Below are positions 4,268-24,080 of a stretch of DNA of 25,487 bases, one piece after another. The stretch lies in the IMG/VR virus record IMGVR_UViG_3300032267_000103, positions 1 to 25,487 of that record; one strand, given 5' to 3'. The notes under the pieces are model-generated. The model was given only the letters and a program-made list of their open reading frames with translations, did no database searches and was not told where the DNA came from. The DNA is from a virus. Within the stretch, counting starts at the first letter, position 1; the number at the start of each line of letters is the position of its first letter. Made by a program: the position numbers and the translations under genes.

Positions 4268-4486
4268 ATGGATCAAGTGTTTGCAAATGCCGTTGTGGAC
4301 GTAATCAAACCCTCAACGCCCCGATCTATTGGTCGGTTTTCCGTCGAAGTCTGGGGCAAGCAACCTCATGACTATGTGCGGGTCTATGAAATTTTGGCAA
4401 AATCAGATACAATAGCTGCACAAGAGGGTATTCGTCGGTTTGTCAAAGAAATCGAAGCCCTGATTTCCGGTAAGGAAGCCGTTTAA
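4268..4486 (+). CDS. Small hypothetical protein upstream of portal (72 aa)
   Basis: The start at 4268 is supported by GGGG at 4258-4261. The protein is a mix of strand and helix, with a central aromatic segment (VEVWGKQPHDYVRVYEIL) and a C-terminal helix (AAQEGIRRFVKEIEALI). No family is recognised with confidence; small genes of this kind often sit between terminase and portal in phages of this type. Its stop codon overlaps the portal start (TAATG), so translation of the two is probably coupled. Confidence 0.7.
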   Translation: MDQVFANAVVDVIKPSTPRSIGRFSVEVWGKQPHDYVRVYEILAKSDTIAAQEGIRRFVKEIEALISGKEAV

Positions 4487-6807
4487 TGTCCATGACCCCC
4501 GGCCTGATGCCCAACATTCGTCAGCCTGCACCCGAAGACGACCTTCCGGGCGTTGAAGACCTGATTGTTGAGGTTGAAGACGGGGATGATGTGCCAAAAA
4601 TTGACTCAAAAGGCGCAATTCTTGAAATTGAACACGCCGATGGGTCAATTACCGTGTCTTTGGACGGCAAACCCATCGAAGACCACAAGGAAGAGCGGGA
4701 TGAAAACGACTGGTTCCGTAATTTGGTTGATGATGTAGCCGAAGGGCAGCTAAACAAGATTTCCCAAGACCTTTTGCGGGGCATTCGGGACGACCTTGAA
4801 AGCCGCAAGGACTGGATTGAAGATCGGGCGCAAGGAATTAAGCTCCTTGGCCTGAAGATTGAAATTCCCGGCTTGCAGGGTGCGTCTGATGGCGCACCGA
4901 TTGAAGGCATGTCTAAGGTCCGACATCCGCTGCTGCTTGAAGCAGTGCTGCGATTCCAAGCAAACGCCCGTTCTGAACTACTTCCCACCGATGGGCCGGT
5001 CAAAGTTCGCAATGACAACAACAATGCGACCCTGCAAGACGACCAACTTGCCGGTTGCCTTGAGCGCGACCTTAATCACTACCTGACCGCAACCGCCAGT
5101 GAGTACTATCCAGATACAGACCGCATGTTGCTCATGCTTGGCTTCGGTGGCACCAGCTTCAAGAAGATTTACTATTGTCCGTTGCGAAATCGTCCCGTGT
5201 CAGAAAGCGTTGACGCCAACGACTTGATTGTTAATAACTCTGCCACGGACCTGTCTAATGCCACGCGCATTACGCATCGGTCATTTATGCGCCCTAGTAC
5301 CGTCAAGAGGCTGCAAATCCTTGGTGTGTACAAAGATGTAGACCTGTCCACGCCCAAGTTGCCCGATCTGGATAGTGTTCAGCGCGAAAAGAACGCCCAG
5401 CAGGGCATTTCTTTTGATGCGTTTAACCCGGAAGACCGTGACCGGGAGATTTATGAAGTTTACTGTGAACTGGATGTGCCCGGCTTTGAGCATAAGCACA
5501 AAGGCAAGCCGTCCGGGTTGGAAATTCCATACATCGCAACTATAGACGTGTCTTCACAGACAATACTTTCACTTGTTCGCAACTATAGTGAGGATAGTGA
5601 TGGCCTTCCAATCGCTAAGAAGCGTTTTGTCAAGTACACTTTTGTTCCCGGCATGGGTTTTTATGATATTGGCCTTTTGCATATACTTGGCAATACAACA
5701 AACGCTATCACGGCTGCGTGGCGTGAACTTCTTGATGCTGGTATGTATAATAATTTTCCCGGTTTTCTTATGGCTGATACTGGTGCCAGACAAAACACCA
5801 ATATCTTCCGCGTCCCCCCCGGTGGTGGCGCACTAGTAAAAACCAACGGTATGCCCATCAATCAGGCCATCATGCCCTTGCCCTACAAGGAGCCTTCTGG
5901 GGCGCTGATGAACCTTGTCACTCAGATGGCTGACACGGGTGCGCGCGTGGGCGGCACTTCTGAGGCTGCGGTGGGTGAGGGCCGGGCGGATGCGCCGGTT
6001 GGCACTACGTTGGCCTTGATTGAACAGGCGCAGAAAATCCTTAACTCTGTCCACAAGCGCCTTCATGCCGCGCAGGCCGAAGAGTTTGAGCTTTTGATTG
6101 AATGTTTTCGGGAGCATCCCGAAGCGTTCTGGATCAAGGCCCGCAAGCCCGCATTTCCGTGGGACGAAAAGACGTTTACGGACGCTTTGGACAACTACTA
6201 TTTTGTCCCGCAGGCTGACCCCAATACTTCCAGCCAGACGCAGCGCCTGATGAAGGTGATGGCACTAAAACAACTAGTAAGCAGTAACCCATCTCTGTAT
6301 GACCCGATTGCGGTTGATACTGCTGCGTTGCAAGCCCTTGGTTGGTCTAATCCATCGCAGTTCATGTTGCCCAAGTCCGTCCAAGGCAACCCGCCGCCTG
6401 AGCTTATTCAGGCAATGGCTAACATGCAGAACCAGAAGAGCAACGCCGAAGCCCGTATGCTGGATAGCCAGACCCGCGCCAAGGAGTCTGAAGCTAAAAT
6501 CCAACTGGATCAGGCCCGCCTCCAAATGGAAATGGGCAACAGTCAGGGCGACCCGGCAAAGATGGCTGACCTTCAGGTTCGTCAAAATGAAGTGGACCAA
6601 CGCGCACAGGACACTGCGTTGGATGCTATTAACCGCAAGAGGGACCGGGAAAGCCGCGAACGTCTTGCCACCATCAAGCTTGCTGAAGAGTTGATTCGCA
6701 ACCCAGCCGGGATACAAGTCGCTGAGTCTATCATTGACCCCGGCATGTTGCAGCGGTTGGAGCAAAACGAACCAACCCTTGACGGCACACAGACTGGAGA
6801 ATTGTAA
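4486..6807 (+). CDS. Portal protein, P22-like (773 aa)
   Basis: The dodecameric portal forms the vertex channel through which DNA enters and leaves and docks the terminase and head-tail adaptor. Length (773 aa; P22 gp1 is 725) fits a podoviral P22-type portal, as does the clip/wing-like core, for example FGGTSFKKIYYCPLRNRPVS around 224-243. The segment at ~643-738 is a long, charged Ala/Gln/Glu-rich coiled coil, the position of the C-terminal barrel in P22. The first ~70 residues are acidic. The start overlaps the previous stop by one base; an ATG two codons later is an alternative. It lies directly after terminase, the usual packaging order. Confidence 0.9.
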   Translation: MSMTPGLMPNIRQPAPEDDLPGVEDLIVEVEDGDDVPKIDSKGAILEIEHADGSITVSLDGKPIEDHKEERDENDWFRNLVDDVAEGQLNKISQDLLRGIRDDLESRKDWIEDRAQGIKLLGLKIEIPGLQGASDGAPIEGMSKVRHPLLLEAVLRFQANARSELLPTDGPVKVRNDNNNATLQDDQLAGCLERDLNHYLTATASEYYPDTDRMLLMLGFGGTSFKKIYYCPLRNRPVSESVDANDLIVNNSATDLSNATRITHRSFMRPSTVKRLQILGVYKDVDLSTPKLPDLDSVQREKNAQQGISFDAFNPEDRDREIYEVYCELDVPGFEHKHKGKPSGLEIPYIATIDVSSQTILSLVRNYSEDSDGLPIAKKRFVKYTFVPGMGFYDIGLLHILGNTTNAITAAWRELLDAGMYNNFPGFLMADTGARQNTNIFRVPPGGGALVKTNGMPINQAIMPLPYKEPSGALMNLVTQMADTGARVGGTSEAAVGEGRADAPVGTTLALIEQAQKILNSVHKRLHAAQAEEFELLIECFREHPEAFWIKARKPAFPWDEKTFTDALDNYYFVPQADPNTSSQTQRLMKVMALKQLVSSNPSLYDPIAVDTAALQALGWSNPSQFMLPKSVQGNPPPELIQAMANMQNQKSNAEARMLDSQTRAKESEAKIQLDQARLQMEMGNSQGDPAKMADLQVRQNEVDQRAQDTALDAINRKRDRESRERLATIKLAEELIRNPAGIQVAESIIDPGMLQRLEQNEPTLDGTQTGEL

Positions 6808-8396
6808 TGGCTGACCGGTACGACGATCAATACTCCAGCCCGGAAGCCCTTCGGCTGGCTAAAGCTTTGGGTATCAACCCCAAAGGCAAGCTTACTGCCA
6901 GCAACCCTGACCTAACCGGCTCCAATGCTGCTTTGGCAAAGCAAATGGCCGCCCGAATGGCAGCACAGAAGGCTGCAAACCGGCAAGAAGAATATGAACT
7001 TGCAAGAGATGCGGATGGGAATACTATTCTTGTTCCAAAATCTGCACCTGAACCTAAAAAGGACCGAAACCGTGTTATGGAGGGCATAACGGAAGGTTTT
7101 GGCGAACAGCCTCTTTCTGGTGTGTCTGAACGTGACCGCGAAAACTACCCTACGATGTCGCGGTATGTTGATCCTGTTGCAAAGGCGCTTAACGCCGTTG
7201 TTCGTACCCCCGGCGCAATCGTAGGCGGCGCTTCTGGCGCTTATGGCGCTGGTGTCGAAGCCGCAACCGGCGATTCTGGCTATGCCAACGCAGAACAGCG
7301 CCGTATGCGTGAGTTTCTGGATTATCTTGGCATTAATAGTGCGGCAACAATGGGTGGCGCACGGGCTCCTGCGCCCGCCCGCAAGGTTGATCCGACAACC
7401 CAATACGCAATGCGGTACGAATCAATTCCGCCAGAAGGCGCTATTGGCCCCGTACAAGCACCTGTTGGCAGCGCCCGTAACCCTGAAATGGGCGGGCAGG
7501 CTTATTCACAAAATGTCGCGCGGCAAGCCCGCATTGATGACATCATCAAGCAGGCGGCTGGCGATACTGCACAGACCCGCCAAAATTCAGCGGTTCAAAA
7601 TGCCATTGACGCCGCAGCCCAACGCGCTAGGGAGGGTATGCCGCGTGAAATGAATGCTGATGAAATTGCTGCTATGCAACGGTCATTTGCTGAAAAGAAC
7701 CCGCCATCCATCGGCCCAAGTACATTTGAAGGTGCTGGTCGCCAAATGACTGCCGACGAAATTGCAGCCATGCAGCGGTCGTTTGCAGGAGCTAACCCGC
7801 CATCTGCAAGCCCGATGAGCCTGCCGGTGGCTACCGGAACCGTTGTTGCGGGCGCAATGACGCGCCCCGGCAAAGGGACGCCCCCCAGCAGCGCGGGAAT
7901 GGATCGGGCGGAAGATGAGGGTTTTTATCGCAGCGTTGGCGCAAACACATTTCGCAATAGTCCGGCTTTAGATCGTTCTGAAGATGAAAATTTTTACCGC
8001 AGCGTTGGCGCGGCCCGTTTGCCCAGCAGTACAGGGATTGACCAGACCGACTACCCAATGCGCTCTTCCGCAGTTTCTGCCGCCAAAAAGCAAGTGGCTT
8101 CTAGGATGCCAGAAACTATTGACCTTAATTCAGGGTCATCTAACGCTTCTAGCCCCGGTATTTTGTCCCGTATCTTTTCGGGCAAAGATTACCAATCCAA
8201 TAGCAGGCCAGTTATGGAAGATGGAACTGTCAATTGGGGCAACCCTGACAGTGCTGCTGACTTCTTCCGTGCCGACAAGGCCCGCATGGCTATGGAAGGT
8301 CGGGCAAGCGGCGGCAGTGTTAATGGCAAGCCCGACAAAGATGCTGCGCTGCATAAGGCGCTGGAAATCATTCACCATATGATCCGTTCGCGCTAA
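6807..8396 (+). CDS. Putative virion/ejection protein with internal repeats (529 aa)
   Basis: No family is recognised. The start overlaps the portal stop (TAATG). Visible features: an Ala/Lys-rich N-terminus; a Gly/Ala-rich hydrophobic stretch (residues ~131-155) of glycine-zipper type; two copies of ADEIAAMQRSFA (around 284-295 and 316-327); and two copies of a DR[AS]ED-E-x-FYRSVGA unit (366-379 and 389-402). A C-terminal module, SGG then DAALHKALEIIHHMIRSR, resembles the end of the next protein. Position after the portal and the amphipathic low-complexity make-up suggest an internal head or DNA-ejection protein. This is an inference; it could also be an assembly factor. Confidence 0.6.
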   Translation: MADRYDDQYSSPEALRLAKALGINPKGKLTASNPDLTGSNAALAKQMAARMAAQKAANRQEEYELARDADGNTILVPKSAPEPKKDRNRVMEGITEGFGEQPLSGVSERDRENYPTMSRYVDPVAKALNAVVRTPGAIVGGASGAYGAGVEAATGDSGYANAEQRRMREFLDYLGINSAATMGGARAPAPARKVDPTTQYAMRYESIPPEGAIGPVQAPVGSARNPEMGGQAYSQNVARQARIDDIIKQAAGDTAQTRQNSAVQNAIDAAAQRAREGMPREMNADEIAAMQRSFAEKNPPSIGPSTFEGAGRQMTADEIAAMQRSFAGANPPSASPMSLPVATGTVVAGAMTRPGKGTPPSSAGMDRAEDEGFYRSVGANTFRNSPALDRSEDENFYRSVGAARLPSSTGIDQTDYPMRSSAVSAAKKQVASRMPETIDLNSGSSNASSPGILSRIFSGKDYQSNSRPVMEDGTVNWGNPDSAADFFRADKARMAMEGRASGGSVNGKPDKDAALHKALEIIHHMIRSR

Positions 8397-8409: not shown

Positions 8410-11034
8410 ATGGCTGGTAAATCCTCCAAGAAGGCAATCAAACTTGCCAAAGGCATTACCAGCCGTACTGGCTACGCTGATGGCGGTCGTCCGATCACCT
8501 CTAAATCATTGGCGGCAAATATGACGCCAGTGGAAGATAACTACAACCCTGATTACAATCAAAAAGTTTTAGGCCAATATCTTCAAGACAAGTTTAACCG
8601 TGCGGTTGATTTGGCAAAAATGCCCGGTGATGTTTTGGCTGGCAATAGGTCATTTGACCCGCGTTCTGATGCAGATATAGCTGACGCAGTTGATTTGGCT
8701 GGGTTTGCCCAAACTGGCGGCATGGGCGGCGTTTCGGCAAAGGCTGGTGAAACAGTACTTGGGTCGGGGCCAATAAAAAAACTTATGCAGCAAATTGAAA
8801 ATGATCGTGGAATTGTTGCTGCCCGTCGTTTAGAAAGGGCGGCAGATGAAATACCTAATTTAGAAAAACTTTACACACCGAATGCTCTTCGCGAAGCTTT
8901 TGTTGGCCCAATGGGAGATGAAAGCCTTTTGATGACTATGAGGCCACAAGACTTTGCAAAGTTTGCGTCTCCTCTTACAGAAGAATTAAAAATAGCCAAA
9001 GAGGGATCATCAAAAGCATGGAATGCTTATGTGCGATCCTTGTCCAAATTACCTCAAACTGGTGGTTTTTCGGACGTTCCCCACCTTACATTTGGTGAAA
9101 TTCAAAACATTCCAGCAATTGTTGGGCATGAAGGCCGCCATAGATCTTTGGCACTTGAAAAAATTAATGAACCAGTTTCTTTGGTTAGGCTTGAGCCATC
9201 TTACCCGATTAAATCTGAAATGATTTCTAACATCCAAGAAAAACTTCCGTATTGGAGACCATATAAAGATGAAAGATTAAAAATGATGTTTTCTGAAAGA
9301 TTGCCGGAAGATTTGCGTGTTGTTCCGCAAACCAGAAGTTTGGATGAATATCAAAAAATTCAACTTCCTGAACCCTACCAGAATGGTGGCGGCGTTGACA
9401 CCGCAGTTGACATAGCCCGCAAGCACTACGCTGCTGGAGGAAGCCCCTTCTACGGCCAAGATGTCTACAATCAGCTTATGGCTGATATAGCTGGTAGGAA
9501 AACAAACATACCAGTAGGACAGTTCGATTTGTACAAAGGTGCAAAAGGAACCGCGCCCGTTGCCCCCAAGGGGACAGCGCCCGGCGGGCAGGACCCTAAG
9601 ATTATTCCACCGACAGACGGCTTTTCTGGGGCATATGACGGCGGCGGATCTGGCGGGTCGGAACAAACAGGAACCCCGCCTGATGGGCCTACCGGGTCGT
9701 TTAATAATCCCTTTTCGGGGATGATTAGCAATGCGGTAAACAACCCCGGAACTACAGCCATTAATGCTGGCGTGGGTTTGTTGGGTGGTCCCTTTGGAAT
9801 TGCAAATTCTGTTTCCGGTTTGTTGGGCGGGCCAACGGTTGGTGGTTTAGTTACCGGAACATACGGGCAACCTACAGCTATCGGGTCCGCTACATCTTAT
9901 GACAAGGGTCCGGCCCCTATCGGGTCTGCTACATCTTATGACAAGGGTTCGACCGCGCCCGATGTAGCTACAAAATCCGTTTCAACTACTTCTGTTGCAC
10001 CAACCAACCAATTTTCTGGTATGTACAACGGAACACCCGTAACAGCAAAAGCTGATGTAGAAGCTGATAAAGGCGTATCAATTGCCAACACCGCCAAAGG
10101 CGTTGCTCAATTAGAAGCTGAAATGGAGGCGCAACAAGCGCAGCAAAACCAAGCGGCAATTGGGGCTCAAATTGGAGCGCAAATCGGCCCAATGCTGGGG
10201 GCCGCTGCACCTAAAGCAGATGTAGAAACTGACAGGGGCGTGTCAATTGCCAATACGGCTAAGGGCGTTTCGCAACTAGAGGGGCGCGACATGCAACCGG
10301 GCGTTCAAGCGCCAAGCCGATCTTCAAGCGTTCCGGGTTTTGCCACTGCGGCGGAATTAGAAAACCCCAATCCCAGCTACACAATGGGCGTTCCTCATGC
10401 GGAATCTGTAAGCGCATATTCTTACGGGACGCTTAACGATCAAAATCAAGCAGCGCAAAATACATTGGGTGACGTTAGCCGGGGTTTAGATGCTTTTGGT
10501 GTCCCCGACCAAACTTCGGTTAGTGTTGCTGACCCCTCTTCCATGTCCCAAGGTATGCAAGATGCTTTGTCGGCAGCAGAAAGCCAATCTCCAAACGACA
10601 ATGCCCCCGGCGGTTATGGCGGCGGCTTTGGCGATGGTTCCATAGGTGGTGAATCTTACGGCGGTGGCGCGTGGGGTGGCGGCGCTGGCAATGACACTAG
10701 CGGCTTTGGCGGTTGGGGCGGTTCTGGCGCTGATGACAGCGGCAGTTATGGCGGCGGCTATGGCGGCGATGGCGATGGTGATGGCGGCGGCGGTGGCGAA
10801 AGCGGCAGTGGAGATAGCGGCGGCGGGGACAGTGGTGGGGGCGATAGCGGGGGCGGTGATGGAGGTGGAGGCGGTGACGGCGGAGGAAGCGGCGAAAAGC
10901 GCGGTGGGTTTATTCGGTTTAAAAAACACGTTCGCCCAAATGAGGCCGCTGTACAAAAGGCATTGAAGATTGCCAACAAGCATACAAAGAACAAAAACAA
11001 GGCTATTGCAAAGAAATCTAGTGTGGTAAAGTAA
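8410..11034 (+). CDS. Large glycine-rich putative virion protein (874 aa)
   Basis: The N-terminus is basic (MAGKSSKKAIKLAKGI) and carries a YADGG motif. Residues ~100-320 look globular and include VGHEGRHRS at 238-246, a GxxGRHR motif that could be catalytic or nucleotide-binding but that I cannot assign firmly. Residues ~441-487 are Gly/hydrophobic and glycine-zipper-like. Then come two direct repeats (ATSYDKG and KADVE-x(2)-GVSIANTAKG types) and a Gly-rich tract with GGGDS units (~733-828). The last 50 residues start with KRGGF and end in a basic helix (EAAVQKALKIANKH), parallel to the end of the preceding protein. An injected or internal virion protein is plausible; the function is not established. 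Confidence 0.6.
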   Translation: MAGKSSKKAIKLAKGITSRTGYADGGRPITSKSLAANMTPVEDNYNPDYNQKVLGQYLQDKFNRAVDLAKMPGDVLAGNRSFDPRSDADIADAVDLAGFAQTGGMGGVSAKAGETVLGSGPIKKLMQQIENDRGIVAARRLERAADEIPNLEKLYTPNALREAFVGPMGDESLLMTMRPQDFAKFASPLTEELKIAKEGSSKAWNAYVRSLSKLPQTGGFSDVPHLTFGEIQNIPAIVGHEGRHRSLALEKINEPVSLVRLEPSYPIKSEMISNIQEKLPYWRPYKDERLKMMFSERLPEDLRVVPQTRSLDEYQKIQLPEPYQNGGGVDTAVDIARKHYAAGGSPFYGQDVYNQLMADIAGRKTNIPVGQFDLYKGAKGTAPVAPKGTAPGGQDPKIIPPTDGFSGAYDGGGSGGSEQTGTPPDGPTGSFNNPFSGMISNAVNNPGTTAINAGVGLLGGPFGIANSVSGLLGGPTVGGLVTGTYGQPTAIGSATSYDKGPAPIGSATSYDKGSTAPDVATKSVSTTSVAPTNQFSGMYNGTPVTAKADVEADKGVSIANTAKGVAQLEAEMEAQQAQQNQAAIGAQIGAQIGPMLGAAAPKADVETDRGVSIANTAKGVSQLEGRDMQPGVQAPSRSSSVPGFATAAELENPNPSYTMGVPHAESVSAYSYGTLNDQNQAAQNTLGDVSRGLDAFGVPDQTSVSVADPSSMSQGMQDALSAAESQSPNDNAPGGYGGGFGDGSIGGESYGGGAWGGGAGNDTSGFGGWGGSGADDSGSYGGGYGGDGDGDGGGGGESGSGDSGGGDSGGGDSGGGDGGGGGDGGGSGEKRGGFIRFKKHVRPNEAAVQKALKIANKHTKNKNKAIAKKSSVVK
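9877..9948 (+). repeat. Tandem 33-nt direct repeat, 39-nt period
   Basis: Two near-identical units (9877-9909 and 9916-9948) encode x-IGSATSYDKG twice, separated by six bases. They lie inside the 874-aa gene and keep the frame, so they duplicate a peptide rather than disrupt the gene. Confidence 0.85.
10048..10281 (+). repeat. Diverged 69-nt direct repeat inside the 874-aa gene
   Basis: Units at 10048-10116 and 10213-10281 each encode a 23-residue segment with the core GVSIANTAKGV. The first is followed by a Gln/Ala-rich linker. Differences are mostly conservative (EADK versus ETDR), so the duplication is older than the 33-nt repeat. Confidence 0.85.
10609..10905 (+). repeat. Glycine-codon-rich tract (GGC/GGT/GGG)
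   Basis: Most codons in this segment are Gly, with Ser, Asp, Tyr and Ala between. The last third is a regular GGGDS repeat. It encodes a flexible acidic Gly-rich linker in front of the conserved C-terminal module of the 874-aa protein. Confidence 0.8.
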
Positions 11035-11105: not shown

Positions 11106-12242
11106 ATGTACGAAATGGCAAAAAAGGCCCGTGAGGCCATGAAATCCAAGGCTAAAGCCCTTGCTGCGCCCGGAAAGGGCCAGATGGTTTCTTCTGCCGA
11201 TTGGTCCCCGCCTGAAATGCTTGATGCGGATGTAAAGACGGGGCTCCGTCCCATCAGCCGCCGGGCTTTCAAAAAGGGCGGTAAAGTCATTGGTGAGTCT
11301 GCCAAGGCCGACATGGGCAAGATGCCCCGTAAATCTGGCGGTAAGGCTGAAGCCACTGAATATGCCAATGCCAAAGTCAACCGCAACGTCAAGGAAGCCA
11401 ACGAAGAGCGTGAGGGCATCAAGCACATTGGTGGCATGAAGCGCGGCGGCCCTGCTAGGAAGGCCCTTGGAGGCCCTATGGCTGGCGCAAACAAGATGAT
11501 GATGAGCGCCCACCAGACCGCTGGCGTTCCTGCCGCCCGCATGGATTTCACTGGCGTCAAAAAGGGTTCCCTGTCCCCCGCCAAGGCTGTTGGCCTAAAA
11601 AAGGGCGGCACTGCTGAAAAGCATGATGACGTTAAGCAGGACATGGCGCTCATCAAGAAGATGGTAAAGCCATCTGCCCGTTCCGGCAAAAAGGAAGGTG
11701 GATTCCTCCGCACCCTTGGCGACCGCGTTGCTGGCGATTTGGCTTCTGACACGGCCATGAAGATCAAGGACAAGCTTCTTGGCGGCTTGAGCGGTGATAA
11801 CTACAAAAAGGGTGGCCGCGCCGCTCGCAAGTCTGGTGGCGGCGTGTTTACCGGCCCCGGCTATCCCGGCAAGGTTCCCGGCGTTGTTCCCGGCGGACGC
11901 GATGCCCATGCCCATGGCGGCAAGGCTGGCAAGGGCAAGACCAACATCAACATCATTATCGGCGCTGCAAAGCCCGCAGATGACATGATGGCTCCGGGCA
12001 TGGGCGGCCCTACGCCTCCCCCGATGCCGGTTCCCGTGCCCCCGCCCGCCGCTGGTGGCGGTATGCCTGCCGGTATGCCTATGCCGATGCCCGCCCCTCC
12101 CGCTGGCGGCGCTCCCGCTGGTGGCCCTCCGATGCCCCGCAAGCGCGGTGGCCGCACCTATCGTTCTTACAAGGACATGGATGCTGGCGCTGGTTCGGGT
12201 GAGGGTCGTTTGGAAAAGACTGAAATCCAGAAGGGCAAGTAA
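11106..12242 (+). CDS. Basic K/R-x-GG motif protein (378 aa), putative virion protein
   Basis: The start has AGGAG five bases upstream. The protein is strongly basic and low in complexity. A six-residue K/R-rich motif around a Gly-Gly pair occurs eight times: FKKGGK 55, RKSGGK 75, MKRGGP 111, LKKGGT 164, KKEGGF 195, YKKGGR 233, RKSGGG 241 and RKRGGR 345. A KTNINIIIGAAKP segment at 278-290 is the most hydrophobic part. It is followed by a Met/Pro/Gly-rich tract (~294-344). The family is unrecognised by name. The repeats could bind DNA inside the head or be short docking or cleavage sites. The two preceding genes and the gene at 17340 carry related motifs, which suggests a shared role in the particle. 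Confidence 0.65.
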   Translation: MYEMAKKAREAMKSKAKALAAPGKGQMVSSADWSPPEMLDADVKTGLRPISRRAFKKGGKVIGESAKADMGKMPRKSGGKAEATEYANAKVNRNVKEANEEREGIKHIGGMKRGGPARKALGGPMAGANKMMMSAHQTAGVPAARMDFTGVKKGSLSPAKAVGLKKGGTAEKHDDVKQDMALIKKMVKPSARSGKKEGGFLRTLGDRVAGDLASDTAMKIKDKLLGGLSGDNYKKGGRAARKSGGGVFTGPGYPGKVPGVVPGGRDAHAHGGKAGKGKTNINIIIGAAKPADDMMAPGMGGPTPPPMPVPVPPPAAGGGMPAGMPMPMPAPPAGGAPAGGPPMPRKRGGRTYRSYKDMDAGAGSGEGRLEKTEIQKGK

Positions 12243-12344: not shown

Positions 12345-12560
12345 ATGTTAACACAGCAAGCATTCTATCAATACGAACTGACCAAACAGATTAAAATGGA
12401 AATAGACCGCCTTAAAGAGGCATTGGTAAGTCTTCACCAAGTAGAAGGGTTTGATTTTTCTTCCTACAAACACCAAGTAGGAAGAATAGAAGGACTTCGC
12501 ACGGCATTGGAGCTTTGCGAAGAAGTAAACGCTACGTTAAGTGGCAAAGAAGGGGGTTAA
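12345..12560 (+). CDS. Small coiled-coil protein (71 aa)
   Basis: This is a short, mostly helical protein. Residues ~8-31 (YQYELTKQIKMEIDRLKEAL) and ~45-65 (VGRIEGLRTALELCEEV) form two helices joined by an aromatic turn (FDFSSYKH), a helical-hairpin design. No family name can be given, though similar two-helix proteins with an LKEAL segment occur beside head genes in podoviruses. It lies directly before the GroES-like gene, whose ribosome binding site is inside its last codons, so both are probably made together. Confidence 0.7.
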   Translation: MLTQQAFYQYELTKQIKMEIDRLKEALVSLHQVEGFDFSSYKHQVGRIEGLRTALELCEEVNATLSGKEGG

Positions 12561-12561
12561 T

Positions 12562-12954
12562 ATGCCTTTTATGACTATGGATCACGAAGTTGATCCTGCT
12601 GGCGCTTTGGTAAAAGAACTTGGCGATCTTAGCAGCGTTGAAGTGTTCAACAATCAAATGCTGGTGGCGGTTTATATCCGCCCTCAGAAAACGAAGAGCG
12701 GGATTATCCTGACCAGCCAGACGACCGACGAAGACCGCTTCCAATCTAAGGTGGGCTTGGTGGTCAAGATGGGGCCGTCTGCTTTTGTTGATAATTCTGG
12801 TGAGTGGTTTGGCGATGCAGAGATCAACGAAGGCGACTGGATTGTGTTCCGGCCATCTGATGGCTGGAGCATTACCGTCAATGGCGTCCTTTGCCGCATG
12901 ATTGACGATGTTAATGTCAAAGCCCGTGTCGATCAGCCTGACCGTGTGTGGTAA
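12562..12954 (+). CDS. GroES-like co-chaperonin (Cpn10 fold, 130 aa)
   Basis: The sequence follows the Cpn10 plan. A first strand (NQMLVAVYIRPQ, 31-42) leads into a mobile loop with SGIIL at 46-50; the I-I-L triplet is where GroES has its GroEL-binding I-V-L. A strand KVGLVVKMGP (63-72) is followed by a dome-region loop and then GDWIVFRPSDG (91-101), the GroES-like 'G-D-x-V-x-F' turn. VNGVLCRMIDDVNV (106-119) corresponds to the GroES C-terminal strands. The N-terminus (~30 residues) is longer than in GroES. Known phage Cpn10s (T4 gp31, RB49 CocO) replace host GroES for capsid folding. Placed among head genes, the same job is likely here. The start at 12562 has AGGGGG at 12551-12556. Confidence 0.75.
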   Translation: MPFMTMDHEVDPAGALVKELGDLSSVEVFNNQMLVAVYIRPQKTKSGIILTSQTTDEDRFQSKVGLVVKMGPSAFVDNSGEWFGDAEINEGDWIVFRPSDGWSITVNGVLCRMIDDVNVKARVDQPDRVW

Positions 12955-15255: not shown

Positions 15256-16170
15256 ATGGCTGTCAATCTTTCGGCTATCAAAGACCTTCTCCTCCCCGGC
15301 CTCCGGGGCGTTGAAGGTAAGTATGAGCAAATCCCGTCGCAGTACGACAAAATCTTCACCAAGCATGAGTCGAAGATGGCTCTGGAGCGCACCGCTGAGA
15401 TGCGTTTCCTTGGCTTGGCCCAGCTTAAGACCGAAGGCGGCCAGACTGCCTTTGATAACGGCGCTGGCGAACGCTACGTCTACAATCAGGAGCATACGGA
15501 AATTGCCCTTGGGTATGCGATTACCCGCAAGGCGATTGACGACAACCTGTACAAGACCCAGTTTGCTCCGTCGAACCTTGGCCTCATTGAGTCCTTCCAG
15601 CAGACGAAGGAAATCTATGGCGCTAACTTGCTGAACACGGCGACAACCTACAACGCTTCCATCGGCGGTGATGGCGTGGCTCTTTGCTCCGCTTCGCATC
15701 CGATTGACGGTGGCACGGTTGCCAATACGCCCACCACTCAGGTTGATCTGAATGAAGCTACCCTGCTGAACGCGATGATTGCGATCCGCACGAACTTCAA
15801 GGATCAGGCTGGTCTGAAGGTGTTTGCCCGTGGCCGCAAGCTCATCGTCCCCCCGCAGCTTGAGCCGGTCTCTATCCGACTCACCAAGACGGAACTCCGT
15901 CCGGGTACTGCGGACAACGATGTGAACGCTATCATGATGACCTCTGGCGGCCTTCCCGAAGGCTACATGGTCAACGACTTCCTGACCTCCGCGTATGCTT
16001 GGTTCTTGCTGACCAACATCGACGGTCTGTCGTATATGGAGCGCGTGAAGTTTGAATCCGATATGCAAGTCGACTTTGTGACTGACAATCTTCTTGTCAA
16101 GGGTTACGAGCGTTACAGCTTCGGTTACTACAACTGGCGTTCTATCTTCGGCTCCTTCCCCACCTCGTAA
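15256..16170 (+). CDS. Major capsid protein, HK97 fold, Mu gpT-like (304 aa)
   Basis: The protein fits the Mu-like major head subunit (gpT) type of the HK97 fold. After a short N-arm, YEQIPSQYDKIFTKHESKMA (23-42) and AEMRFLGLAQLKTEGG begin the E-loop/P-domain. GAGERYVYNQEHTEIALGYA continues the E-loop strands into the spine helix around 97-134 (AIDDNLYKTQF, then SFQQTKEIYGANLLNTA). The Asp/Asn-rich loop CSASHPIDGG and the C-terminal ERYSFGYYNWRSIFGS are also typical. No prohead protease is encoded in the window and the protein has no long N-terminal delta domain, in keeping with a separate scaffold gene. AAGGAG precedes the ATG. Confidence 0.9.
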   Translation: MAVNLSAIKDLLLPGLRGVEGKYEQIPSQYDKIFTKHESKMALERTAEMRFLGLAQLKTEGGQTAFDNGAGERYVYNQEHTEIALGYAITRKAIDDNLYKTQFAPSNLGLIESFQQTKEIYGANLLNTATTYNASIGGDGVALCSASHPIDGGTVANTPTTQVDLNEATLLNAMIAIRTNFKDQAGLKVFARGRKLIVPPQLEPVSIRLTKTELRPGTADNDVNAIMMTSGGLPEGYMVNDFLTSAYAWFLLTNIDGLSYMERVKFESDMQVDFVTDNLLVKGYERYSFGYYNWRSIFGSFPTS

Positions 16171-17339: not shown

Positions 17340-17639
17340 ATGAAGGGTCGTAAGACTACTAAGGATAGTGGTCCCGCGAAAGGCGTCAATGCCGCCGCGA
17401 TGGACCTTGCTGACAAGCCAAGCCGCCGCAACATTGCGCCGAAGATTTTCGGTGCTGCTGAAGAGCGCAAGCGTGGTGGCAAGACGATGGGCAAGATGGA
17501 AGGCGATTCTGCCATGCATCATGCCGGTCGCAAGCCCCGCAAGTCCGGTGGCCGCGCTGGCTCCAACATGAGCCCGCTTTCGTCTGCTGCCAAGGGCTCT
17601 CCCGCCCCCGGTCGCGATGTTTCGGGTAGCCTTGACTAA
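17340..17639 (+). CDS. Small basic KRGG-motif protein (99 aa)
   Basis: A perfect AAAGGAGG precedes the ATG. The protein is highly basic and probably disordered. It carries RKRGGK (43-48) and RKSGGR (67-72), the same short motif that occurs eight times in the 378-aa protein at 11106, and PRKSGG in particular is shared exactly. No domain is recognised. Being the last gene before a strong terminator in the capsid unit suggests high expression. A DNA-binding or head-interior role is inferred from charge. Confidence 0.7.
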   Translation: MKGRKTTKDSGPAKGVNAAAMDLADKPSRRNIAPKIFGAAEERKRGGKTMGKMEGDSAMHHAGRKPRKSGGRAGSNMSPLSSAAKGSPAPGRDVSGSLD

Positions 17640-17692: not shown

Positions 17693-17705
17693 CTAGGAGT
17701 TGTTG

Positions 17706-18242
17706 ATGCTAGGCGTAGAAGCCGCAAAAACAAGGAAATCCTGTTCTAAATGTGGGACAGAAAAACCTATATGCGATTTCTATGCGGCTGGCAAAAAAAC
17801 TGATGGAACTCCAAAACGAAATTCTTGGTGCAGTGCGTGTATAAAAGAGAAAATGGCGGCATACCGTAAAAGAAAATGGGGCAATGACGGTTTGCACTTC
17901 AATGCCTTTATGCGAACAAAAACTCCCCGGTCTTACTTGTCTTACCTTTTGGGAAAAGCCCGCAGCCGCCATGAATGTTCTATAGATATTGACCATCTCT
18001 GTACTTTATGGGACAGGCAAAATGGACTATGCGCTATCACTGGATGGACAATGACCATGCAACTTGAGAACGGGGTTGTCCCAACAAACACCAGTATTGA
18101 CCGAATAGATTCTAACATTGGGTATGTTTTTGGCAATGTGCAACTGGTTTGTAGGTGTGTTAATATAGCAAAACACAACCTAAGCATGACTAGTTTTGTT
18201 GAAATGTGTACCGCTGTAACGAAGGAACGGGAAAATGGCTAA
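17706..18242 (+). CDS. HNH homing-type endonuclease (178 aa)
   Basis: An N-terminal zinc-ribbon (CSKC at 13-16 and CSAC at 42-45) is followed by a basic helix. A C-terminal HNH-type nuclease shows CAITG (109-113), SIDRID (130-135) and GYVFGNVQLVC...N-I-A-KHNLS (139-160). This arrangement is that of free-standing phage homing endonucleases, which nick or cut intron-less or gene-less alleles and spread by repair. It is visibly more AT-rich than its neighbours, a sign of separate ancestry. AGGAG at 17695-17699 gives the start. It sits directly after the strong terminator and overlaps the next gene by 8 nt. Confidence 0.85.
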   Translation: MLGVEAAKTRKSCSKCGTEKPICDFYAAGKKTDGTPKRNSWCSACIKEKMAAYRKRKWGNDGLHFNAFMRTKTPRSYLSYLLGKARSRHECSIDIDHLCTLWDRQNGLCAITGWTMTMQLENGVVPTNTSIDRIDSNIGYVFGNVQLVCRCVNIAKHNLSMTSFVEMCTAVTKERENG

Positions 18243-18480
18243 AACACCAGCTTGGCAGCGTTCAGAGGGTAAGTCTGAATCTGGTGGATTGAATGACAAG
18301 GGCCGCGCTTCTTTGAGGGCAGAAGGCCATGATATTAAGCGCCCACAACCAGAGGGCGGGTCGCGCAAGGATAGCTTTTGTGCTAGAATGACTGGTGCCA
18401 AGCGAAAGTTAACCGGCTCTGCCAAGGCGGCTGATCCTAATAGCCGAATTAACAAGGCGCTTAGAAAGTGGGATTGTTGA
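18235..18480 (+). CDS. Small basic protein, DUF6321-like (81 aa)
   Basis: The pattern MAKTPAWQRSEGK, then SGGLNDKGRAS, a Lys/Arg-rich middle, RKDSFCARMTGAK and a final ALRKWDC matches a small family of phage proteins I know as DUF6321-like. It is of unknown function and found in viruses from T4-like to uncultured podovirus-like groups. The ATG overlaps the end of the endonuclease gene by 8 nt, so the insertion probably sits neatly in front of it. The next 54-aa gene starts two bases after its stop. Confidence 0.75.
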   Translation: MAKTPAWQRSEGKSESGGLNDKGRASLRAEGHDIKRPQPEGGSRKDSFCARMTGAKRKLTGSAKAADPNSRINKALRKWDC

Positions 18481-21200: not shown

Positions 21201-24080
21201 GTGGCAAACTCCCAAATCCCCAATCTTCCTGCTGCAACCTCTCTTAACGGGACGGAACAGCTTGAGATTGTGCAGGCTGGGACATCTAAACGCACAACGA
21301 CTGGCGCTGTTTCAGGGTTAACACCCGGCCCGACCGGCCCCACTGGTGTGTCTGGGCCTACCGGACCCGCCGGGGTTACGGGACCCACGGGAAGTACAGG
21401 CCCCACCGGGGCGGCATCTACAGTAGCAGGACCTACAGGTTCCACGGGCGCTACCGGCCCGACCGGCCCTACTGGTGCTAATTCTACCGTAGCTGGGCCT
21501 ACTGGCACGACTGGTGCCACCGGCCCCACCGGGCCTAATTCCACTGTTGCTGGACCTACAGGACCCACCGGGCCGCAGGGGCAGCTTGGCTCCACCGGGC
21601 CAACTGGGCCTACTGGTACGGCATCTACAGTTCCGGGGCCTACTGGGCCTACTGGACAGCAAGGCTTGCAAGGAACCATTGGGTCTACGGGACCTACGGG
21701 TCCAACATCAACGGTATCTGGACCTACGGGTCCTACAGGGCCTAGCGTTACTGGGCCAACTGGTTCTGCATCAACTGTTCCCGGTCCTACGGGTCCGACT
21801 GGGCAATCTGGGAATGTTGGCCCAACCGGCCCTACCGGCACAACCGGCCCCAGTATCACGGGACCAACTGGTCCAGCTTCTACTGTTGCAGGGCCGACTG
21901 GCCCGACCGGAAGTCCGGGTTATGTTGGTTTGGACGGCCCGACCGGCCCCACTGGGCCTACGGGTGCTGACTCAACGGTTCCCGGCCCCACCGGCCCCGG
22001 CGGCGGCGTCGGCCCAACCGGCCCCACAGGCGCAGCTTCTACGGTTGCTGGGCCAACCGGGCCTACGGGAACCGCCGGAATTAATGGGCCAACCGGACCC
22101 ACGGGCGCTGCTTCAACTGTAGCCGGGCCAACTGGTCCGACTGGTCCTACTGGTGCGGTTTCAACGGTTGCCGGTCCCACCGGGCCTACGGGGTCGCCCG
22201 GCACATCGTCCAATCTGTTTCTGTACTTTGCCAATACGGGCGCAACGTCTGGCTACCCCGGCGATGGCGACATCCTTTGGAACAACGCCACCCAGACCAG
22301 CGCCACGCAGCTTAACGTCAGCCACCTGACTGACAACAATATCGACATTGATATTTTCCTGTCGCTTCTTTCGGTAGGAGAGCAGATTGTCGTCCAGAGC
22401 CAAACGGCCAGCACCAGCTACCAGACTTGGACGATCTCTGGCACTCCCACCAACGTAAACCCCGGCGCGGCTAACTCATACTGGACCTTTCCTGTCACCT
22501 TGGCGGGTTCTGGCGGTGCGGGGACAACAGGATTTGCAAACGGCGCGGCACTATTTTTGGCGCTTGTGAGCGGCGTCAGTGGGCCGACTGGGCCTGCGGG
22601 GCCAACCGGGCCTACGGGGGCGGCGTCTACGGTGGCCGGTCCAACTGGCCCCACGGGAAGCGCGGGCGGCGCAGGAAGCACCGGCCCGACCGGCCCGACC
22701 GGCAATGCCGCTGTAGCGTCCTACACCCGCACCAGCTTCACCGCCACGGCGGGCCAAACAACCTTCACGGTCTCCTATACCGTTGGCTACGTTCAGGTCT
22801 ATCTGAATGGTGTCTTCCTTAATGGATCAGACTATACCGCGACGAACGGAACTTCTATTGTTCTAGCGACGGCTGCTGGGTTGAACGACATCGTTGAAGT
22901 TGTTGCCATCAACGTCAATACGTTTGGGCAAGGTCCGGTAGGTCCGACCGGCACTGCTGGCGCAACCGGCCCGACTGGCCCCGCCTATACAATTTTCCAA
23001 GCTGTGCAGACGGCCAGCTTCACTGCCGTGGCTGGGAATGGCTACCCTGTTAACACCACATCTGGTGTAATAACGGTCACGCTTCCTGCAAGCCCGTCTG
23101 CGGGCAACATTGTCCAAATTACGGATTATGCAGGGACTTTCGGCACCAATTACTGCACCATTAATCCAAATGGCGGCAAAGTTAACGGCATTGCTGCAAA
23201 TGCTTATCTGTCCACAAGCCGGGCCAGCGTTTCTCTTATCTACGTTGATTCAACGCAAGGCTGGCTTGGATACTGGTCTTTCAACCAGTCTTCTATCTCT
23301 CAAATATCCACCTATCTTATCGTCGCTGGCGGCGGCGGGGCTTCCCAAGGCGGCGGGGGCGCTGGCGGCCTTTTGGCTGGAACCATTGGTCTAAACACTG
23401 GAACTACCTACACTGTCACTGTTGGCGGTGGCGGGGCTGGCGGTGCAGGCAGTGGGACCACTGGGACCAGTGGAGGAACATCTTCTATCACTACATTGAC
23501 TGCCGCCGTTGGTGGCGGTGGCGGCGGCGGCGGGGCCAACGGTGTCGCAGGCGGTTCTGGTGGCGGTGGCGGTGCCGGTGGTGGCATAACAAGAACGGGT
23601 GGCGCAGGAACATCTGGACAAGGTTCTGCCGGTGGCGGTAACGGCGCTTTCGCAGGATCACAGCCTGCTGGTGGTGGTGGCGGCGCTGGCGCTGTTGGTG
23701 GCACGGCTACAAGCACTACGGTGGCTGGTGCTGGTGGCGCGGGCCTGTCTTCTTCAATCACTGGGTCTGCGCTTGATTATGCTGGCGGCGGCGGTGGTGG
23801 GGTATATGCCACTGGCGGAACCGCTGGCGCTGGCGGATCAGGTGGTGGCGGCGCGGGCTCTTCAAACACAGCCAACGGCACTGCCGGGACTGTAAACACG
23901 GGTGGCGGCGGCGGCGGCACCGGAAATAACTACACAGGCGGCGCTGGCGGCTCTGGCGTTGTCATCCTTTCAGTCCCAACCGCAGTTTACACGGGCACCG
24001 TCACCGGCTCGCCCACTGTAACCACATCGGGGTCATTTACCATCATCAAGTTCACCGCATCGGGGAGCTATACTGCATGA
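21201..24080 (+). CDS. Collagen-like, glycine-rich tail fibre (959 aa)
   Basis: This is a long modular fibre. Residues 1-35 are an anchor module shared with the preceding protein. Residues ~43-335 are collagen-like, dominated by GPTGPTG. Residues ~339-455 are a globular domain ([20 protein letters not shown]). A second short collagen stretch (~460-502) precedes a fibre beta domain with [19 protein letters not shown] (~503-578), then a third GPTG block (579-595) and another beta domain. From ~702 the protein is Gly-rich ([17 protein letters not shown]), like polyglycine-sandwich receptor-binding tips. The GTG start lies 4 nt after the previous stop without a good SD, so translation may be coupled. 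Confidence 0.88.
21327..22203 (+). repeat. Collagen-coding tandem repeat tract
   Basis: Nearly 900 bp encode imperfect GPTGPTG units. Eleven of them are interrupted by an STV[APS]G segment (mostly ASTVAG, NSTVAG or ASTVPG) at roughly 15-40-residue spacing; a twelfth copy lies in the second collagen stretch near 22630. The DNA is repetitive enough to recombine and to confuse assembly. Confidence 0.9.

Follow-up and report, generated by a model that had tools for sequence, protein, structure and literature searches.

A GG-helix tag at the C-termini of exchangeable portal-to-GroES proteins, a candidate docking signal in a group of freshwater phages

Most of the large, rapidly exchanged proteins encoded between the portal and GroES-like genes of this phage group carry, at a fixed C-terminal position, a GG turn and, behind it, a short helix that is often amphipathic. 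This tag is nearly absent from the terminase large subunit (TerL), portal, GroES, scaffold and capsid proteins. The same tag is found behind different domains, and a constant leader together with a constant tag frames the swapped enzymes. Only in a few systems is it known how phages choose the proteins that they pack and inject, T4 being the best worked out. We give an even chance to the repeated GG motif being a protein-docking signal of proteins carried inside the virion by this phage group; position and modularity of the tag are read directly from the proteins, and from these we infer packaging, recognition by a receptor, and ejection.

The head-gene region and its K/R-x-GG sites

The stretch of DNA analysed (the window) is an IMG/VR virus contig of 25,487 bases, which according to Pfam and PHROG scans of its proteins contains a tailed-phage head region. 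It codes for a terminase large subunit, an SU10-type portal, a GroES-like co-chaperonin, a scaffold-like protein, named from its position, and a capsid protein. The portal-to-GroES interval is occupied by genes for proteins of 529, 874 and 378 residues, and the gene for a 99-aa protein lies downstream of the capsid gene:

4486..6807, + strand: portal of the SU10 type, conserved locus anchor (PF23899, E 1.8e-14)
6807..8396, + strand: 529-aa protein rich in Ala, Gly and Ser, first cargo gene past the portal
8410..11034, + strand: 874-aa protein, a two-unit cargo
11106..12242, + strand: 378-aa protein, basic, mostly disordered, with eight K/R-x-GG sites; kept 3' of the cargo genes in relatives
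12541..12954, + strand: GroES-like co-chaperonin, bounding the cargo interval on the right (phrog_3188, E 3e-13)
15256..16170, + strand: major capsid protein (phrog_371, E 3.1e-10)
17340..17639, + strand: 99-aa basic protein with two K/R-x-GG sites

The capsid protein (15256-16170) is 91% identical to that of phage MW202675 and the portal (4486-6807) only 62%, a hint of mosaic exchange within the head region; no homologous solved structure was found for either protein. Between the 99-aa gene and that of an 81-aa DUF6321 protein (18235-18480) lies a 180-aa ORF (17700-18242) with a Cys-rich start, which we take to resemble an HNH-type endonuclease. PHROG matches place the DUF6321 domain at the C-terminus of several phage protein families whose members are much longer, so that it may, like the tag, be a C-terminal module. 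A 959-aa protein (21201-24080) carries long GPTGPTG collagen-like repeats and has a glycine-rich C-terminal part.

An earlier note on this DNA, made from the sequence alone, had listed eight K/R-x-GG sites in the 378-aa protein, two in the 99-aa protein, a KRGGF in the 874-aa protein and an SGG in the 529-aa protein, and all are present (at residues 58, 78, 114, 167, 198, 236, 244 and 348; 46 and 70; 832; and 502, respectively). When each protein was subjected to 1000 residue shuffles, the 378-aa protein proved enriched in [KR]-x-GG, with 8 sites against 2.03 expected (p about 0.001), and in the 99-aa protein the motif reached 2 vs 0.46 (p 0.063), or 3 vs 0.21 (p 0.002) with the looser [KR]x?GG[KRTVF], a pattern composed afterwards. 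The motif was unenriched in the 874-aa protein (1 vs 2.14, and 2 vs 3.85 with looser spacing) and absent from the 529-aa protein (0 vs 0.47 expected), which excludes K/R-x-GG as a motif common to all four genes. The idea of a common short motif thus holds in part: a motif is shared, with [Y/F]xxGGx[V/I/T] as its core and, in many cases, a helix behind it.

The C-terminal tag of the cargo proteins

The redefined core comes from the cargo proteins, by which we designate the 122 distinct ORFs located between the portal and the 378-aa gene in relatives; since the calls were mechanical and took the first start codon in each case, some of these ORFs may be misjudged. Residues around their GG pairs were compared with shuffled flanks, windows with more than six G being dropped. 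The [YF]xxGGx[VIT] motif occurred 31 times vs 4.1 expected in cargo (418 non-redundant windows), 9 times vs 0.6 in the 378-aa family, and at most once in each of the core gene sets; one control went against this trend, with 4 occurrences vs 0.7 expected of K-x-GG-x-[VITA] in TerL. Past the GG, a helix of the form V-x-x-A-[L/I]-x-[L/I]-x-[R/K/S/H] often follows. Furthermore, GG sites crowd the protein end, 43 out of 105 falling within the last tenth of de-replicated cargo of at least 250 aa.

Among complete ORFs de-replicated by C-terminus, GGx[VITA] is present in the last 45 aa of 31 of the 45 cargo proteins (shuffled 4.8, maximum 11), compared with 2 of 49 core proteins. The helix pattern, which was composed after viewing these sequences, is found in the last 48 aa of 26 cargo proteins (shuffled 0.4) and of none of the 49 core proteins. 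Both GG and helix are present in 24 of the 45 cargo C-termini, and neither in 11. With the same selection of ORFs, the amphipathic moment reached p<0.05 in only 13 of 31 tags. In the GGS[VI]VDRALMLxSxxA subtype, most genuine cases have the GG 16 residues ahead of the stop, with protein lengths from 146 to over 1600 aa; the scan with this pattern was used for the distance to the stop codon only, because it returns many chance matches in antisense or unrelated frames. Different cargo proteins of one genome bear different tag subtypes, and some N-terminal GG units also occur. Besides the tag, GRP is found at or near the end of 6 of the 45 C-termini (e.g., in L086, L069 and L042), often as RGRP or RGRPD past the tag helix, and is reminiscent of the AT-hook core.

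Because the helix pattern had been composed on the first set, a held-out set was examined with the patterns fixed. It consisted of neighbours of the tag protein in loci found via another motif, from which those resembling the first set had been removed. Among 35 upstream neighbours, which include some portal-like proteins at loci without cargo, the GG is present in 19 (shuffled 2.3), the helix in 12 (shuffled 0.3) and the two together in 9 (shuffled 0.04); both were present in 0 of 83 downstream ORFs. Whole-body clustering of cargo yielded 8 clusters, with 95 of 104 proteins in a single one because modules are shared, and any count of independent cases is weakened accordingly. Clustering by the 200 aa preceding the tag gave 34 clusters, in 23 of which at least half of the members are tagged (shuffled 3.4, maximum 8).

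In the window, the corresponding elements of the 529- and 874-aa proteins are as follows:

8301..8393, + strand: C-terminal GG-helix tag RASGGSVNGKPDKDAALHKALEIIHHMIRSR, residues 499-529 of the 529-aa protein (amphipathic, p 0.010)
8410..8763, + strand: constant leader of unit 1 of the 874-aa protein (GYADGGxxxTPxSLAxNxTPPED ... TGGxGGAxAxAGETVLGSGPI), common to relatives with a differing next domain
9373..9441, + strand: internal GG-helix unit PYQNGGGVDTAVDIARKHYAAGG, residues 322-344 of the 874-aa protein, at the junction of the two units
10891..11031, + strand: C-terminal GG-helix region GEKRGGFIRFKKHVRPNEAAVQKALKIANKH..., residues 828-874 of the 874-aa protein

The 874-aa protein is a fusion, its two units being encoded as separate proteins in relatives. 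The counterpart of unit 1 in one relative (L086) stops right past the tag, and the start of unit 2 resembles separate proteins of other relatives, which begin with MKRxSISEALRLARKRYADGG. In the alignment of unit 1, the constant leader of about 100 residues and the constant GG tag flank a middle that differs between relatives, with LPD23 (L055), ART-PolyVal and SLT (L014) or a weak GNAT match (L059) swapped in behind the leader; in another relative (L032), a Hydrolase_2 domain is located farther downstream in the same protein. The unit 1 domain of the window gave a poor structure model (pLDDT 40.7), and a wider search for its relatives returned close ones only. Its HEGRHR stretch may be ParB-like.

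With regard to cargo domains, Pfam matches in 89 de-replicated cargo proteins of relatives comprise Hydrolase_2 (5), SLT (4), ART-PolyVal (5), LPD23 (5) and PBECR5 (2), as well as single InPase, PcfJ, M23 and amidase matches. Since no Pfam match of the 529- or the 874-aa protein passes the curated cut-off, it is from their position and the sharing of modules that we infer them to be injected cargo.

The basic 378-aa and 99-aa proteins

The 378-aa protein is retained among relatives and, in an AF2 prediction based on 40 aligned sequences, largely disordered (mean pLDDT 55.5). The highest scores fall on three short helices at residues 2-20, 174-186 and 365-377. The second of these comes right after the K-K-GG at 167 and the third comes after the K-R-GG at 348:

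11109..11165, + strand: N-terminal basic helix AKxARxAMKxKAKxL, residues 2-20 (alignment; AF2 helix, pLDDT about 77)
11598..11669, + strand: site 167 (K-K-G-G) with the helix behind it, KKGGTAEKHDDVKQDMALIKKMVK, residues 165-188 (GG and K in 51/51; AF2 helix 174-186, pLDDT 70-79)
12138..12239, + strand: C-terminal tag RKRGGRTYRSYKDMDAGAGSGEGRLEKTEIQKGK, residues 345-378 (AF2 helix 365-377, pLDDT about 77)

Conservation in homologues was found for only some of the sites. In an alignment of 51 homologues, restricted to rows that exceed 300 aa and carry EK or QK close to their C-terminal end, K/R-x-GG is kept at site 58 in 50, and at 114 and 167 in all 51; site 348 is kept in 50-51, a figure inflated by this selection of rows, which leaves the other three unaffected. 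The remaining sites are less kept (78 in about 33 of the 51, 236 in about 27, and 198 and 244 in 11-18). Among the homologues listed (>300 aa), the number of K-x-GG sites per protein ranges from 4 to 13, and the C-terminal tag is present in tandem copies in several relatives. The K-x-GG sites of the 378-aa protein do not match the helix pattern of cargo, and no match is listed for the 99-aa protein either. These two basic proteins share a module, since residues 44-82 of the 378-aa family, taken as a profile, match the 99-aa family (domain E about 1e-5 to 3e-9); the block FKxGGKVxGE...GRKPRKSGG is common to both.

Neither protein belongs to a Pfam or PHROG family, and no solved structure matched the 378-aa profile, the best hit (E 1.3) being a proline-rich chance match. 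Among named phages, the 378-aa protein is found in a single record, MW202675, and its C-terminal tag in MW202675 and as a weak match in a Vibrio phage. The tag also occurs in Rhizobium and Bradyrhizobium genomes; genome-contig matches to the GEGRLEK pattern include chance ones (e.g., L243, L244, L251, L257, L258 and L260). In R. lusitanum, the gene order is portal, a 178-aa tag protein, a 69-aa protein, GroES and a scaffold-like protein. A second, independently fetched group of 20 loci was examined except for L345. In the resulting 19 loci, the tag protein directly follows the portal in 11 and comes after cargo genes in 3 (L347, L351 and L352); elsewhere, the contig ends too early (L344), a tag protein is lacking (L348) or other genes occupy the place (L349, L350 and L353).

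The portal-side proteins of the marine phages HTVC027P and 023Pt_psg01 lack the helix tag, as does the product of the MW202675 gene annotated as internal virion protein D. In the two marine phages, TerL (L112 9263-10741 and L116 9372-10874) has a GG motif, MRFRQGGLIRHPEDYEED and MRFRQGGFVRLPDDFEED, respectively, about 25 residues from the C-terminus. In phage MW202545 (L121 18808-20157), a 449-aa protein with 14 K/R-GG sites is encoded after the capsid gene rather than before GroES. A mimicry of the GroES mobile loop was also considered and dropped, the GG motif being devoid of the hydrophobic triplet of this loop.

Possible function of the tag and comparison with known systems

The tagged proteins are probably packed into the head and injected by this freshwater-phage group. 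The tag would bind a common partner in head assembly, which may be the scaffold, the capsid interior, the portal or, acting as a hub, the 378-aa protein; through this binding, effector and peptidoglycan-hydrolase modules would be packed into the prohead and then ejected with the DNA. With its many GG copies, the 378-aa protein could be a multivalent partner or hub, or else a fellow cargo. In the window, the candidates for such docking would be the 529-aa protein through its C-terminal tag, the 874-aa protein through its internal and C-terminal units and, though their likeness to the tag is weaker, the 378- and 99-aa proteins. Counting against a docking signal are the 11 untagged cargo C-termini out of 45, the lack of the helix tag in the two marine phages and in internal virion protein D of MW202675, and the loose likeness of the K-x-GG sites of the basic proteins to the helix tags. 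The existence of several tag subtypes in one genome also makes for a poor fit to a single receptor. Among the three functions envisaged in the earlier note, a docking tag would nevertheless fit best, the motif being placed at the C-termini of different proteins, tandemly duplicated in relatives and kept across swaps of enzyme domains.

The main rival would be contact with nucleic acid, in which the basic K/R-x-GG sites bind the packaged DNA, either condensing it or anchoring proteins to it. This proposal agrees with the strongly basic character of the 378-aa protein (net charge +36) and the 99-aa protein (+12), as it may with the AT-hook-like GRP or near-GRP ends. However, the GG motif is also present in proteins that are neutral or acidic (net charge +1 for the 529-aa and -14 for the 874-aa protein) and in acidic contexts such as YADGGEVD, while tag-bearing cargo C-termini have charges from -2 to +11; RGG triplets are rare and distant in the 378-aa protein, and its sites are not RGG boxes. 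The RGG-like DNA contact suggested in the earlier note may hold for the two basic proteins but hardly for the other two, and we regard nucleic-acid contact as an unlikely explanation of the motif. Cleavage by a maturation protease after the double glycine, also envisaged there, is disfavoured, and we deem it highly improbable: the GG is indeed conserved within regions predicted to be disordered, but the residues that follow it are conserved as well, the tag is tandemly duplicated, and no prohead protease is annotated in the examined CDS of MW202675, the nearest named genome, or detected among the window proteins that were scanned against Pfam and PHROG.

Two further explanations concern the helix tag itself. 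It may act at the ejection stage rather than in packaging, by inserting in the cell envelope or by assembling ejected proteins, as would suit the amphipathic nature of part of the tag helices and the peptidoglycan hydrolases on several cargo relatives; the tag is nevertheless also borne by proteins with predicted cytoplasmic targets (ADP-ribosyltransferase domains), which have no need of the envelope, and such a role appears improbable. Alternatively, the GG units might reflect descent and low complexity only, being homologous linker modules or recombination joints devoid of binding function. That the proteins are mosaics of shared modules with low-complexity flanks speaks for this, yet the C-terminal position is fixed, exactly 16 residues from the end for one subtype in most genuine cases, and the tag pattern also holds in the held-out set, so that we consider it rather improbable.

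The docking reading may be extended in a doubtful but possible way, whereby a large group of phages with short tails, and of prophages, would use the GG-helix tag as a general C-terminal packaging code for injected effectors. The multi-GG disordered protein, whose gene directly follows those of the portal and its cargo, would be a dedicated cargo adaptor loading the prohead. Were the adaptor real, each tag subtype would fit its own site on this protein, the portal or the scaffold. A tag that predicts cargo from sequence would allow listing the injected effectors of many uncultured phages, would help to find new counter-defence enzymes, and would permit testing protein delivery via tag fusion.

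With regard to known systems, RGG-box motifs likewise place arginine or lysine beside GG in a disordered basic protein, but consist of dense RGG repeats; in the 378-aa protein, closely spaced repeats are not found, the only two RGG triplets being 234 residues apart, the K/R-x-GG sites are far from each other, and the residue two after GG is V, T or A. Double-glycine processed peptides depend on a dedicated GG protease and on leader removal, whereas here no such protease was found in the examined annotation of MW202675 and the post-GG sequence is conserved. Encapsulin cargo-loading peptides are C-terminal, sit on a flexible linker and dock cargo inside an HK97-type shell. The tag resembles them in its C-terminal position, and differs in that the shell concerned is the DNA-packing capsid of a phage.

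The cargo relatives resemble the phage polyvalent proteins of Iyer et al. 2017 (PMC5512222), among whose domains ART, PBECR, InPase and LPD are listed and which were predicted to be packaged in virions and injected. Relatives carry ART-PolyVal, LPD23, PBECR5, InPase and cell-wall hydrolase domains among late genes, and disparate enzymatic or conflict domains are found at their locus in large proteins next to virion genes. The difference would lie in the tag, as the accessible text of PMC5512222 describes no packaging signal and contains neither words starting with 'glycine' nor the phrase 'linear motif'. No packaging signal for polyvalent proteins was found in print, and among the titles and abstract starts listed from open-licence PubMed Central papers none describes this tag.

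T4 provides the closest precedent with its capsid targeting sequence (CTS), a short peptide borne by otherwise different and variable internal or injected proteins, which is proposed to let phages pack varied cargo (PMC9026906). The T4 sequence is N-terminal and removed by the prohead protease gp21, whereas the present one is mainly C-terminal with a GG turn (31 of 45 cargo proteins), and neither the examined annotation of MW202675 nor the profile scans of window proteins revealed a prohead protease for its removal. The tag would therefore act like the T4 CTS while being C-terminal and apparently uncleaved, and may represent a variant of the head-packaging signal, set apart from that of T4 by its position and by the matter of cleavage.
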